DNA from: a virus
IMG/VR virus record: IMGVR_UViG_3300021961_000053
Coordinates: 1 to 64,000 of that record
DNA length: 64,000 nucleotides
Strand: one strand, 5' to 3'
Part shown: piece after piece, positions 1,928-6,500 of the stretch
Layout: each line of letters starts with the position of its first letter
Position numbering within the stretch: the first letter of the stretch is position 1
The notes under the pieces: generated by a model
What the model was told of the DNA's origin: nothing
Database searches by the model: none
What the model saw: only the letters and a program-made list of their open reading frames with translations
Made by a program: the position numbers and the translations under genes

Positions 1928-2012
1928 GGGAGCATGGTGGAATCGGTAGACACACCAGACTTAAAATCTGTTGGGCATTACGCCCGTGGGAGTTCAAGTC
2001 TCCCTGCTCCTA
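1928..2012 (+). tRNA. tRNA-Leu (UAA)
   Basis: The acceptor is GGGAGCA/TGCTCCT; the anticodon loop is CTTAAAA; the class II variable arm TGGGC...GCCCG is expected for leucine. Last tRNA before the cpeT interruption. Confidence 0.93.
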
Positions 2013-2050
2013 TTCCTGTTAAATAGTAACAGGATATACTAACAAATGTG

Positions 2051-2332
2051 ATGGCAGTTTTTAGATACACCATAACTAGGAAACATGTCTTCGTTGACAA
2101 TGAACCAGTTCTGATGTATTTTATTGAGAACATACCATTTGCATTTGATGTTTTAGAAGAGAACGAGAAACACGATAAGTGGATCTTGTCAGAAGCAGCA
2201 CTCAATCTAGAATACACTCTTGAAGATATCTTCAGGTATTCTGATTATTTGATTGCTGAAGAATGCCACCCTGTATTGTTTGAATTAGATTTAGTTAATC
2301 CAGAAGTTTTACCTGATGAACCAGTTTCTTGA
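2051..2332 (+). CDS. Hypothetical 93-residue protein upstream of cpeT
   Basis: I chose the ATG at 2051; a GTG one codon upstream is possible. The product is acidic and aromatic (FRYTITRKHVF, LEYTLEDIFRYSDY). No family is recognised. Its last 17 nt overlap the start of cpeT, so the two are probably coupled. Both sit inside the tRNA array. Confidence 0.65.
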   Translation: MAVFRYTITRKHVFVDNEPVLMYFIENIPFAFDVLEENEKHDKWILSEAALNLEYTLEDIFRYSDYLIAEECHPVLFELDLVNPEVLPDEPVS

Positions 2333-2855
2333 TCTATTAGAGGGCACCTTTGCTAACAAACGTCAGGCACAAGGACACCCTACTCGTTATGCACATATTC
2401 GGGTTCAACATCGGAAAATTTCCGATTGTCGCTTTTATGGCGAACAAGCATACAACTATCTTCTAAATAGACCATATCGCCAGTTCGTAATTGAAGTGGT
2501 AGATGAGGGTAATGAAGTAGATGGAAACATTTACCGTCTCAAAAACTATGAGATTGAAGACTCTCTAAGGTTTGCGGAATGCAAAAATCTAGAACTTATC
2601 ACTGATGAGATCTTGACATACCGCAAGGGGTGTGATATTATTATGAGGCAAGTCGGTCCAGCAGCATTCAAGGGTGGCACCTCCACCTGCGAGTGCTGGG
2701 TTGATTGGCAAGGCACGAAGACCTACGTTCAAAACGAGGTTCTGCTCACAGAGACAGATTACCAAGTGGTTGATCGTGGTCTTCATGCCGAAACCCATGC
2801 TAAAGTATGGGGGTCCGACTGGGGAGCGTTCAAGTTCGTCAGAATGGGGATGTAG
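2316..2855 (+). CDS. cpeT: CpeT/CpcT-family phycobiliprotein lyase-like protein
   Basis: The 179 residues match the CpeT/CpcT (DUF1001-type) fold. Residues about 41-58 contain YGEQAYNYLLNRPYRQFV, and the C-terminal half has the family pattern with GC at 105-106, a Cys-containing GGTSTCECW and DRG...KVWGSDWGAFKF. In cyanobacteria these lyases attach bilins to phycobiliproteins; the phage copy is a known auxiliary gene thought to keep light harvesting running during infection. The gene overlaps its upstream neighbour by 17 nt. Its final codons and TAG stop lie inside tRNA-Asp (10 nt shared), so transcript processing at tRNA 5' ends would cut the mRNA just before the stop. Confidence 0.88.
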   Translation: MNQFLDLLEGTFANKRQAQGHPTRYAHIRVQHRKISDCRFYGEQAYNYLLNRPYRQFVIEVVDEGNEVDGNIYRLKNYEIEDSLRFAECKNLELITDEILTYRKGCDIIMRQVGPAAFKGGTSTCECWVDWQGTKTYVQNEVLLTETDYQVVDRGLHAETHAKVWGSDWGAFKFVRMGM

Positions 2856-2918
2856 CTCAGTGGTTAGAGCACTAGCCTGTCACGCTAGTGGTCGTGGGTT
2901 CAAGTCCCATCATCCTCG
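2846..2918 (+). tRNA. tRNA-Asp (GUC), overlapping the end of cpeT
   Basis: The acceptor is GGGGATG/CATCCTC, the anticodon stem CTAGC/GCTAG around CTGTCAC and the T arm GTGGG/CCCAT. The first 10 nt are also the last codons and stop of cpeT. Confidence 0.93.
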
Positions 2919-2966: not shown

Positions 2967-3038
2967 GCCATTTTAGCTCAGTGGTAGAGCAACCGCCTTG
3001 TAAGCGGTAGGTCGTCAGTTCGAATCTGACATGTGGCT
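2967..3038 (+). tRNA. tRNA-Thr (UGU)
   Basis: The D stem is GCTC/GAGC, the anticodon loop CTTGTAA in a CCGC/GCGG stem and the T arm GTCAG/CTGAC. The acceptor GCCATTT/ATGTGGC carries one T-T mismatch and a G-T pair, so it is weaker than its neighbours. Confidence 0.82.
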
Positions 3039-3040
3039 TT

Positions 3041-3093
3041 GGTAGTCGCTAGGCACATAGCCTAGAAAGACGCCAACCTTCCGTTAGGGTTGG
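3041..3093 (+). other. Structured inter-tRNA spacer with two hairpins
   Basis: CTAGGC (3049-3054) pairs with GCCTAG (3060-3065) around ACATA, inside GTC...GAC. A second, stronger hairpin spans 3073-3093, with 8 pairs closing a 5-nt loop. No poly-T follows and it does not fold as a tRNA. Confidence 0.4.
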
Positions 3094-3141
3094 AAATGTC
3101 CGAATCTAATGGTCGTAGGGAAGTCCTCTAACACTTCCCAT

Positions 3142-3216
3142 TTCCTCTGGTAGTCTATTGATAAGGACACCCCGACAAGGGAGTTGGAAACTGGGTTTGA
3201 TTCCCAGACAGAGGAA
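3142..3216 (+). pseudogene. Degenerate tRNA-like element
   Basis: TTCCTCTG (3142-3149) pairs with CAGAGGAA (3209-3216). There is a D-like stem GTCT/GGAC and a perfect T arm CTGGG/CCCAG with loop TTTGATT. CCTCTGG to the discriminator A is 72 nt, the same length as neighbouring tRNAs. The anticodon arm is defective: no 5-bp stem with a 7-nt loop and U33 can be drawn, although GACAA suggests a former Val-GAC loop. Probably a tRNA relic. Confidence 0.45.
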
Positions 3217-3222
3217 GATAGA

Positions 3223-3270: not shown

Positions 3271-3344
3271 GGGGAATTAGCTCAGTCTGGTAGAGCGCCT
3301 GCTTTGCAAGCAGGATGTCAGCGGTTCGAGTCCGCTATTCTCCA
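3271..3344 (+). tRNA. tRNA-Ala (UGC)
   Basis: The acceptor is GGGGAAT/ATTCTCC, the anticodon stem CCTGC/GCAGG around TTTGCAA and the T arm AGCGG/CCGCT; discriminator A. Confidence 0.93.
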
Positions 3345-3350
3345 CCTTAT

Positions 3351-3422
3351 TCCACAATAGCTCAGCGGTAGAGCCATCGACTGTTAATCGATTGGTCCCT
3401 GGTTCGAATCCAGGTTGTGGAG
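3351..3422 (+). tRNA. tRNA-Asn (GUU)
   Basis: The acceptor is TCCACAA/TTGTGGA, the anticodon loop CTGTTAA and the T arm CCTGG/CCAGG; discriminator G. Last tRNA of the array. Confidence 0.93.
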
Positions 3423-3437: not shown

Positions 3438-3551
3438 ATGAATATCCGAGGTGATTGTACTTGGTCCGAACAATTCGGATACATTTATCTGTGTGTCAAA
3501 GAGATCACTAAAATTCTTATACTTGGAGATCGCTACCGCCCTAGTGTATAA
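3438..3551 (+). CDS. Hypothetical 37-residue protein
   Basis: ATG at 3438 with an AGAGG ribosome-binding site, TAA at 3549-3551. The product is short and mixed hydrophobic (CVKEITKILILGDRY). The stop codon lies inside the late promoter of the next gene. It could be chance coding. Confidence 0.35.
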   Translation: MNIRGDCTWSEQFGYIYLCVKEITKILILGDRYRPSV

Positions 3552-3554
3552 ATA
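3547..3554 (+). promoter_or_regulatory. T4-type late promoter (TATAAATA)
   Basis: An exact match to the T4 late promoter, 41 nt upstream of the giant structural gene at 3596. In T4 such elements are read by host RNA polymerase carrying the gp55 sigma factor and gp33. Confidence 0.8.
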
Positions 3555-3595: not shown

Positions 3596-6500
3596 ATGCC
3601 ATTAACACGTCTGGATAACCTTATCAGCTCCAAAACTGGTAAGTATCTTTATGTTTCTCCTGATGACTTTAACGCCACAGATTCGTTATCAAACAGAGGT
3701 AATTCACCAGTTACCCCATTTAAGAGCATCCAACGTGCGTTCTTAGAAATCGCAAGATATTCATATACCCCTGGTCCATCTAACGATAGATTTGACCAGT
3801 TCAGCATCATGCTGATGCCTGGTATTCACTATATTGATAACCGTCCTGGTCTTGTAGATACCAGTGGTATTGATGTATTTGATTTCAACCAAGCTCTGAA
3901 TGCTTGGGGCGATGATCCTATCCTTGATATCTCAAATCCAGATAACATCCTTTACAGGTTCAACAACACTGAAGGTGGTGCTATTATCCCTAGAGGTTCT
4001 TCTCTTGTAGGTTATGACCTCAGAAGAACTACTGTTCGTCCTCTATACGTTCCTGATCCTGCATCTGTAACTGTTCCACGTTCTGCAATCTTTAACGTAA
4101 CTGGTGGTTGCTACTTCTGGCAATTCACTCTAAAGGATGGACAGACCACTGCTGAATCCCCTCTCTACAACCCTGCAGCAGGCACTGGTGAAGTATACTA
4201 TGATCCTAATGATTTCACTAGAAAAACTGCTCCTAACTTCTCTCACCACAAACTAACTGTATTTGAATATGCTGATAAGGAAGAGCTGCAACTCTTCTAC
4301 AGAAAGATTGCTAAGGCATTCTCTGCATATCAACCAACCATTGATGATGTATCACCAGAAGGTATTCCTGAGTTTGATTACAACGTTCAGGAAAATAGAA
4401 TCGTTGGTCCTCTATCTGACTCTCGTGTTATTGAGTCACTTAAATTCACGGATGCGACAACAAATCCTGCAATTCCATCATCAACCACTGAGATTGAAGT
4501 AACAACTAAGGTTGATCACGGTTACTTTGCTGGTCAGTTTGTTGCTATTTCTGGAACTGAAATTGATGATGAGATCGAAGGATTCTGGGGAATTTATGAC
4601 ATCTCTGATGATCCTCGTAAATTTACCTATCGTGTTCCTTTTGTTGTATCTGGAATCGGTCAAGGTCTATCGTCTGGAATTACCGTTAGTGTAGATACCA
4701 CTCCTGCATTAGGTCAGAACGCACAAGTTCTTGCGGAAGTTGATTCTGTTGAGTCTGCGTCACCATACGTTTTCAACGTTTCAATTCGTTCTGTCTGGGG
4801 TATTTGTGGTATCTGGGCAAATGGTTTGAAAGCCACTGGATTCAAATCCATGGTTATCGCTCAATACACGGGTGTTTCGCTTCAGAGAGACGATAGAGCA
4901 TTCATTCGCTACGACGAATACGCAAACACTTGGAACCAAGCATCACTAGTTGATGCATTTGCTAGTGTTCCTTACCACGCTAAGGGCGATTCCTACTGGA
5001 AGGATGACTGGAGAAACTTCCACGTTCGTGCTTCCGATGACGCATTCATCCAGAACGTTTCTATCTTCGCGGTTGGTTTCGCTGATCACTTCCTGATGGA
5101 GTCGGGTGGTGACATGTCGATCACCAACTCTAACTCAAACTTCGGTAATACCTCACTACACGCTATTGGTTTCAAAGGATTCTCCTTCAACCAAGATAAG
5201 GCAGGTTATATTACCGATATCATTCCTCCTCAGCAAGTTGTTGAGAGTGAGACAAATAGAAAGAGAGTTCTATACTATACTATTGACGTTCAGGGAACCA
5301 TCCAGGATGGAGCAAATCGCACCAAACTATATCTTGGTGGAACAGATCTAGACAATCCACTAGATCGTCCTGCTGCTACTATTGGTGGATATAGAATTGG
5401 TGGCAAGTCTGGTGATAAACTTTATGTAAAACTGGACAAAAAGAATAACATTGATACTTTCCAAACAACATTAAGTCCAACTGGTTTTGTTAAGTATATT
5501 GCTAAGGGTTCTATTCTCAATCCAAGTAACTATACTATTAATAATGTAAATGTTGACGCTGCTAATCTAATCGAAAGCAACCGTCGCATGATTCAGGAGG
5601 AAGTCTTCGGTTATATTCTAGAGAAGTATCCAAGACTCCAGAACATTTCATATGTCAATCCATCACTTAACCCTGCTGCTGGTCGTTACCTTGATGCCAA
5701 GAATCTAATCATTGCTAACCGTCAAGAGATTGTTGATACAGCTTTTGACGAGATGGTTGAGGCATTTGGTATTGGTAACATTCAAGGTGTTGCCGATGGT
5801 AAGTGCAAGCGTGACATTGGTTTCATCGTTGATGCTATCGCAGAAGACCTCAGAGATGGTGGTAATGCTAACATCATTGCTGCAACTAGAGAGTATTTTG
5901 ATGGCAATGGAGATGCAATTTCAAACGGTCTTGTTGGAGAAGAAGTTCCATCTGTATTTGCATTTAACAGAGCAAGAGATCTCTGCAAGAAAGCAATTGC
6001 TAACCTACTAACAGTTAAAGCATCTATCTACGATCCAGAGACTGATAACCTACTATCTCCTTATGGAGTTATCTCTGGAAGCACTGGATCTGCTGCTCTA
6101 GGACTAGACAGTGAAGGTGTAACTGTAGATAAGGCAAACAGACAAGATCCTGCTGGTCGTTATAAGGATGCTCGCAACAGAATTATTGCCAACCGTGACT
6201 TTATTCTTGACGCAGCACTAGCAGAAGTTGCTGTCTATCATGACGATTTCTACTTCCCAGGAACTGCACAGACTACTGCTAAGTCTCGTTTCTACGATGG
6301 ATTCAGAATGATCCGTCGCAACAACAAAGAGATTGCTGATAGAGCCCTTGCTAAGATTGCATTTGAGCATCCTGATTTCTACTTCCCAGGAGATGCTCAG
6401 ACCACTGCTGATTCAAGATTCTATGATTCATATCGTCTGATTCAGCAAAACAAAGATGAGATTCAAGACCGTGCATTAGCACAGATTGCAATCAACCATC

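Follow-up and report, generated by a model that had tools for sequence, protein, structure and literature searches.

A tRNA that supplies the stop codon of a cyanophage cpeT gene, and a conserved promoter-like motif within that gene

The stretch of DNA analysed here (the window, 64,000 nucleotides in length) is part of an 83 kb IMG/VR virus record that, judging by its content, derives from a T4-like cyanophage. In the phage collection, the closest named relatives of the window are Synechococcus phages. ARAGORN identifies 13 tRNAs between positions 1293 and 3423, and the tRNAs, the two protein genes before tRNA-Asp and the cpeT promoter motif described below all lie on the + strand. The final tRNA of an upstream block of nine is tRNA-Leu(TAA) (1928..2012), and two protein-coding genes are placed between it and tRNA-Asp(GTC) (2846..2918). 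The first is a small open reading frame (2048..2332) that carries a T4-like GC730 label in the annotation of some relatives, and the second is cpeT (2316..2855), the start of which overlaps the small gene by 17 nt. Beyond tRNA-Asp lie tRNA-Thr(TGT) (2967..3038) and a downstream block that includes tRNA-Ala(TGC) (3271..3344) and tRNA-Asn(GTT) (3351..3422), each of which is called by both ARAGORN and Rfam, as is tRNA-Leu. Two degenerate tRNA-like stretches, at 3039-3120 and 3145-3217, can be discerned by eye between tRNA-Thr and tRNA-Ala, where neither ARAGORN nor Rfam makes a call. A T4-type late promoter sequence, TATAAATA, is located at 3547-3554, ahead of a gene at 3596 that encodes 4480 amino acids.

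The cpeT open reading frame encodes 179 amino acids and ends with a TAG codon at 2853-2855. Its product matches the Pfam CpeT profile (PF06206) with an E value of 1.6e-38 and a score of 132.8 bits (cut-off 21), covering positions 2-181 of the 181 in the profile, and is also related to the solved CpcT structure 4o4o (E value 2e-22). By this full-domain profile match, the gene is classed as T-type phycobiliprotein lyase-like, of the CpeT/CpcT family.

An initial annotation of this DNA proposed that cpeT reads into tRNA-Asp, and that its last three codons and stop codon form the 5′ acceptor strand of the tRNA. The first proposal is confirmed: the two genes share 10 nt on the same strand (open reading frame 2316-2855, tRNA 2846-2918). 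The tRNA is placed at 2845-2919 by ARAGORN and at 2846-2918 by Rfam (RF00005), where its score of 74.3 bits is the highest among the 13 tRNAs. It forms a cloverleaf with a GUC anticodon and carries both G73 and C38, which are identity elements of tRNA-Asp; the CCA end is not encoded. Nucleotide 1 of the tRNA (G, 2846) falls on the third position of ATG, the third-last codon of cpeT, and the 5′ acceptor strand GGGGATG occupies 2846-2852. The second proposal thus holds for the overlap itself but not for the stop codon, which lies outside the acceptor strand and corresponds to U8-A9-G10 (2853..2855), namely the two linker bases and the first base of the D stem. The cpeT frame lacks a separate stop codon; the near-invariant U8-A9-G10 of the tRNA acts as its stop, both in the window and in 70 relatives.

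One isolated overlap of this kind is unremarkable, because a random frame that enters a tRNA will stop at positions 8-10 about one time in three. The share observed in a chance control is similar. This control comprised 120 IMG/VR stretches chosen by a tRNA pattern that already contains TAG at positions 8-10, in which every tRNA was counted (601 distinct) and frames of at least 100 amino acids were scored if they ended between −60 and +70 relative to the tRNA start. Ninety-four frames end in this range, 25 of them within the tRNA, and eight of the 25 stop at positions 8-10, one of the eight belonging to a cpeT gene. Genes other than cpeT account for 21 of the 135 frames that stop in this manner in cyanophage loci. 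Six of these non-cpeT frames were compared with Pfam, yielding three 2OG-Fe(II) oxygenases, one HNH match below the Pfam cut-off and two frames with no Pfam match. One gene in phage Sf-CH11 (2016-2570 of locus L013) is annotated as DNA endonuclease V, matches the 2OG-Fe(II) oxygenase profile PF13759 and has its stop inside tRNA-Thr. Both the control and the non-cpeT examples speak for an accident of packing, wherein the cpeT frame has met the TAG of a tRNA by chance, and to which we return after describing the promoter-like motif.

The persistence of the overlap across lineages and tRNA species is a different matter, and is not unremarkable. We assembled 148 cpeT loci of the window type (the window, 22 from GenBank and 125 from IMG/VR), where one gathering step was limited to the 80 best of 140 relatives and where raw counts contain duplicates, since some GenBank phages recur as IMG/VR copies. 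U8-A9-G10 serves as the cpeT stop in 71 of the 148, being supplied by tRNA-Thr in 56 loci and by tRNA-Asp in 15. In many relatives, tRNA-Thr(TGT) lies directly 3′ of cpeT and provides the stop there. When three truncated loci and two with unknown ends are set aside, 143 remain readable, and these include eight in which cpeT stops elsewhere in the tRNA, 25 with their own stop no more than 60 nt before the tRNA and 39 without an adjacent tRNA. Hence, 71 of the 79 window-type cpeT genes that end within a tRNA do so at U8-A9-G10, although the loci share ancestry and include some duplicate records. Among the exceptions are three loci of the S-CAM3 type, in which cpeT enters tRNA-Thr by 39 nt and its TAA stop adjoins the anticodon. 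In S-PM2, too, the stop is found at a different site of the tRNA. Because 25 of the 143 readable loci have a separate stop just before the tRNA, the overlap is dispensable.

The same arrangement recurs in a second, distant cpeT clade, whose members are 24-28% identical to CpeT of locus L016. In its GenBank members, the gene occupies a different genomic place, preceded by a CP12-like or small gene and followed by gp5. The cpeT stop falls at tRNA positions 8-10 in 44 of 91 second-clade loci (43 tRNA-Val and one tRNA-Gly), a share that depends on the two queries chosen and that includes three truncated loci and one of unknown state in its denominator. The stop is TAG, or in some cases TAA. Conservation in other phages, which the initial annotation had named as a check on its proposal, is therefore evident as a recurrent overlap in both clades.

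Given that the window derives from an IMG/VR record, a miscalled frame end, a pseudo-tRNA or an assembly error might be suspected. However, the same arrangement is present in six GenBank phages in which both features are annotated (S-RSM4, S-WAM2, S-CAM4, Sf-CH1b, Sf-FR1 and S-CAM1). Acceptor stems of the overlapping tRNAs also remain mostly paired while their bases vary, with non-pairs numbering 1 of 28 for tRNA-Asp and 9 of 98 for tRNA-Thr. These observations, together with the high score of the window tRNA-Asp, make an artefact very improbable.

A tree was built from 100 trimmed CpeT proteins, after removal of short sequences and of identical trimmed proteins sharing the same state; it is a quick tree in which 35 of 96 inner branches are open. 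On the best tree, the overlap trait changes at least 21 times and switches between tRNA-Asp and tRNA-Thr number at least 11, while the starred branches alone force fewer changes (12 for the tRNA-Thr state and five for the tRNA-Asp state). We do not count the 11 switches as independent fusions, as recombination or loss of a tRNA-Asp unit would fit equally well. Across approximately the last 500 bases of cpeT, each 60-base segment of ACG-2014i matches ACG-2014j at 92-100%, and only one of the two carries a tRNA-Asp unit between cpeT and tRNA-Thr, with the junction in frame. In ACG-2014i and ACG-2014e, this unit is bracketed by the repeat CCCGTATG, of which one copy lies inside cpeT and the other is made up of the end of tRNA-Asp, the spacer and the first base of tRNA-Thr. 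Deletion between these repeats would leave cpeT in frame with a new stop. The tRNA-Thr-only forms in this comparison carry different Arg codons. In the window, the spacer that follows tRNA-Asp (2920-2966) contains CAGAATGCC and CTTCATGCC, which resemble the junction between the end of cpeT and tRNA-Thr in relatives and are possibly a scar of tRNA-Asp gain. We suggest that the overlap lasts because the stop could not change without damage to the tRNA, and because each of the tRNAs that come and go beside cpeT would provide a stop in the same register.

Another conspicuous feature lies inside cpeT at 2612..2641, where the sequence CTTGACA-N17-TATTAT matches a sigma-70-type promoter with a score of 11 of 12. 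It comprises a leading C (2612), a −35 element (TTGACA, 2613-2618), a TGA that provides the extended −10 TGn (2633-2635) and a −10 element (TATTAT, 2636-2641), with a spacer of 17 nt (16-18 were allowed) and a predicted start near 2648. When the leading C and TGn are included, the window contains a single exact match, and two matches if one mismatch is allowed, where 0.05 would be expected. A gap of 205 nt separates the −10 element from nucleotide 1 of the tRNA in the window, and the same holds for 36 of the 48 distinct cpeT genes with an overlap. At homologous codons, a score of at least 10 of 12 is found in 43 of the 48 distinct overlapping genes and in 44 of 53 others; the remaining five overlapping genes score below 10, three of them at 8 or less. 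A separate classification covered 98 of 101 distinct proteins. When the last 330 nt are searched, the best site reaches at least 11 in 54% of overlapping cpeT genes versus 2.9% of synonymous-codon shuffles.

Synonymous constraint was assessed over 172 codons in 50 cpeT representatives with less than 85% identity. The most constrained codons include Leu100 (rank 1), codon 99 (rank 2), codon 108 within the −10 element (rank 3) and Thr101 (rank 6). Codon 99 has C as its third base in 30 of 49 representatives, Leu100 is encoded by TTG in 44 of 49 (17% elsewhere) and Thr101 by ACA in 39 of 46 (30% elsewhere). Two further motif codons are GAT in 48 of 49 (74% elsewhere) and TGT in 44 of 50 (72% elsewhere). 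The preference is retained among 21 representatives with less than 70% identity (TTG in 16 of 20, ACA in 16 of 19). Second-clade genes exhibit TGGACA or TTGACA, mostly with TATGAT, at the homologous codons, and there the GAC codon that supplies the C before the −35 element and the Thr codon ACA hold ranks 1 and 2 of 143 codons (24 representatives), or ranks 1 and 7 of 141 when 17 representatives are used. The encoded residues differ at these sites (LT or WT; DI, DN, DT or DM), while the motif positions in the DNA are kept in both clades. These comparative patterns show selection on the motif DNA beyond that on the protein.

An accidental meeting of frame and tRNA would have to account for this pattern by some RNA signal or codon effect, with all tRNAs arising by read-through and processing. 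Promoter-like codons with some constraint are indeed found in a second gene, the one that precedes cpeT. Its site at 2094-2122 was considered as a clean negative control and rejected, as its codons 22, 19 and 17 rank 2, 3 and 5 for synonymous constraint within that gene. This site is less conserved: 9 of 29 representatives reach a score of 10 or more out of 12, and the three codons have G values of 23-27 versus 105 for Leu100 of cpeT. Some of the phages may use it as a cpeT promoter. Against an accident, however, the positions that are kept within cpeT are precisely the −35 element, the base preceding it, TGn and the −10 element at 17-nt spacing, and the same positions are kept in two clades of distant proteins despite different residues. 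We therefore consider a mere packing accident unlikely.

Whether the motif serves the tRNAs can be judged from their co-occurrence. When tRNAs within 1.5 kb are scored, 83 cpeT genes have both motif and tRNA, seven have neither, six have a tRNA only and four have the motif only (Fisher P = 2.8e-5), but this association reduces to five to seven independent pairs, about three to zero, which is not significant. Across 12 pairs, presence of the overlap does not follow that of the motif (about two to one). A strict tie between motif and tRNAs is contradicted by the P-SSM3-like phages, which lack tRNAs and retain the motif with scores of 9 to 11 of 12 (one listed row scores 5), an observation that also lends weight to the packing-accident reading. 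In P-HM1, which has no tRNA, the motif scores 7. A scan for host cpeT, in one genome, found only a phage-like copy. Weighing against a promoter, a review (PMC2984593) relates that the authors of the S-RSM4 study found no sigma-70-like motif upstream of early T4-gene homologues in that phage; the motif described here is present in S-RSM4 cpeT. The cultured phages S-RSM4 and S-RIM2 both carry overlap and motif. Taken at sequence level, the motif probably serves whatever lies downstream, tRNAs included.

The initial annotation had also argued that RNase P cleavage at the tRNA 5′ end would remove the stop codon from the cpeT message, so that one transcript cannot give both products and lyase output could be tied to tRNA processing. 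The first step is sound, as the stop codon lies 3′ of a cut at nucleotide 1 of the tRNA. The claim of exclusivity is too strong, given that a ribosome could complete cpeT ahead of tRNA folding and cleavage, such that protein and tRNA might be obtained in sequence from one molecule. The annotation had itself named a tRNA promoter within cpeT, giving separate transcripts, as evidence that would count against it; at the level of DNA sequence, such a candidate now exists as the conserved and constrained motif at 2612-2641, present in two clades. Because of this motif, the tRNAs probably have their own transcripts, with CpeT made from longer ones, and the proposed coupling is weakened, an RNase P switch being the less probable reading. 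Overall, the original interpretation is partly supported.

Such a switch would make CpeT and tRNA mutually exclusive for each transcript, and lyase production would fall as tRNA processing proceeds. U at position −1 favours bacterial RNase P, and this base precedes the tRNA in 40 of 41 distinct junctions versus 152 of 285 other tRNAs in these loci, counting tRNAs with T8 and G10 in register; all are related sequences. The predicted cut between U(−1) and G(+1) falls within an AUG codon in 36 of the 41 junctions. Given the relatedness of the sequences, and since the Met codon may reflect a protein trait, the prevalence of U(−1) is suggestive only, and we do not take it as proof of selection by RNase P. 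The switch can also draw on the long life of the overlap across window-type loci and the second clade, and on a precedent for the same logic in selB/tRNA-Sec, as proposed by Mukai (PMC8124441). However, the intragenic motif offers tRNA transcripts without cpeT, some relatives terminate cpeT before the tRNA, and the partner tRNA varies (Asp, Thr, Val or Gly) with no evident tie to pigment work. Nor is there a special leader structure across loci. With a 60-nt leader, the predicted acceptor stem is retained in 31 of 49 overlapping tRNAs versus 257 of 356 others, and with a 30-nt leader in 35 of 49 versus 272 of 356. A leader that hides the tRNA was thus rejected: the 30-nt leader of the window alters the predicted fold, yet over the whole set of loci the overlapping tRNAs differ little from the others. 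On balance, we regard the switch as improbable. A broader proposal, wherein cpeT and tRNA form a reciprocal module (the gene holds the tRNA promoter, the tRNA holds the gene stop, and neither can be cleanly lost) and RNase P shifts output from CpeT to tRNA during infection, is speculative and in our view rather doubtful.

The most likely explanation, which we favour with reasonable though far from complete confidence, is a closely packed junction of genes whose transcripts are nested. The cpeT frame enters the tRNA and is terminated by its U8-A9-G10, while a promoter of the host sigma-70 type inside cpeT, approximately 205 nt upstream, could yield this tRNA and those that follow. Short RNAs from this putative promoter would lack a complete cpeT, and so tRNA output need not use up the CpeT message. 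CpeT itself would be translated from longer transcripts initiated further upstream; ribosomes would either complete the frame before RNase P cuts between U(−1) and G(+1) or compete with that cut, and any cleaved, stop-less cpeT ends would presumably be resolved by trans-translation.

Intragenic sigma-70 promoters are known in bacteria and phages, and the cpeT motif resembles them in having −35 and −10 elements with a 17-nt spacer within a coding region and upstream of other genes. What sets it apart is that two clades keep it at equivalent codons of a single auxiliary metabolic gene, often with a tRNA after it that provides the stop of the same gene. In mitochondria, long transcripts are cut at tRNAs. 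Animal mitochondria also have overlapping protein and tRNA genes, according to PMC8124441, which cites Doublet 2015 for them, and share with the present case a compact genome and tRNAs partly or fully within a protein gene, whereas cpeT has a nested bacterial-type promoter motif. A further parallel described in that report is selB, whose 3′ end contains or overlaps the tRNA-Sec gene (selC) in Alphaproteobacteria and others, and for which the same logic of processing versus protein was proposed (Mukai 2021, PMC8124441). As with cpeT, the protein frame enters a same-strand tRNA, cutting by RNase would leave a nonstop mRNA, and some relatives lose the overlap through a new stop before the tRNA. 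The cpeT junction thus has the same-strand overlap that processing would cut, but over only 10 nt, whereas the selB frame includes either the entire tRNA or the first 46-48 nt of it. Moreover, the selB protein and its tRNA act together while the cpeT partner changes, and U8-A9-G10 as the stop and a promoter motif within the gene are particular to cpeT in this comparison. Among the matches listed in a search of titles and abstract starts in the open-licence literature, we found no account of the cpeT/tRNA overlap or its promoter in phages. Sullivan 2010 (PMC3037559) reports cpeT in 12 of 16 cyanophages, in passages that make no mention of a tRNA overlap.

Annotation suffers in some of these phages. 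In the stretches of S-H9-1 and S-H9-2, cpeT is present in the DNA without an annotated coding sequence, and only the overlapping tRNA-Asp is annotated. In those of ACG-2014e, ACG-2014i and S-PM2, tRNAs that ARAGORN finds after cpeT are missing from the GenBank annotation.

These findings show that, in many phages, a protein gene can rely lastingly on a conserved tRNA base triplet as its stop codon, and the cpeT/tRNA junction offers a clear case in which to examine how translation and RNase P compete. They also suggest a second role for cpeT, an auxiliary photosynthesis gene of marine phages, as a promoter for whatever follows it, tRNAs included. If this promoter is active, then part of the cpeT sequence would be kept for regulation and not for the lyase alone, which bears on the question of why viruses keep cpeT.
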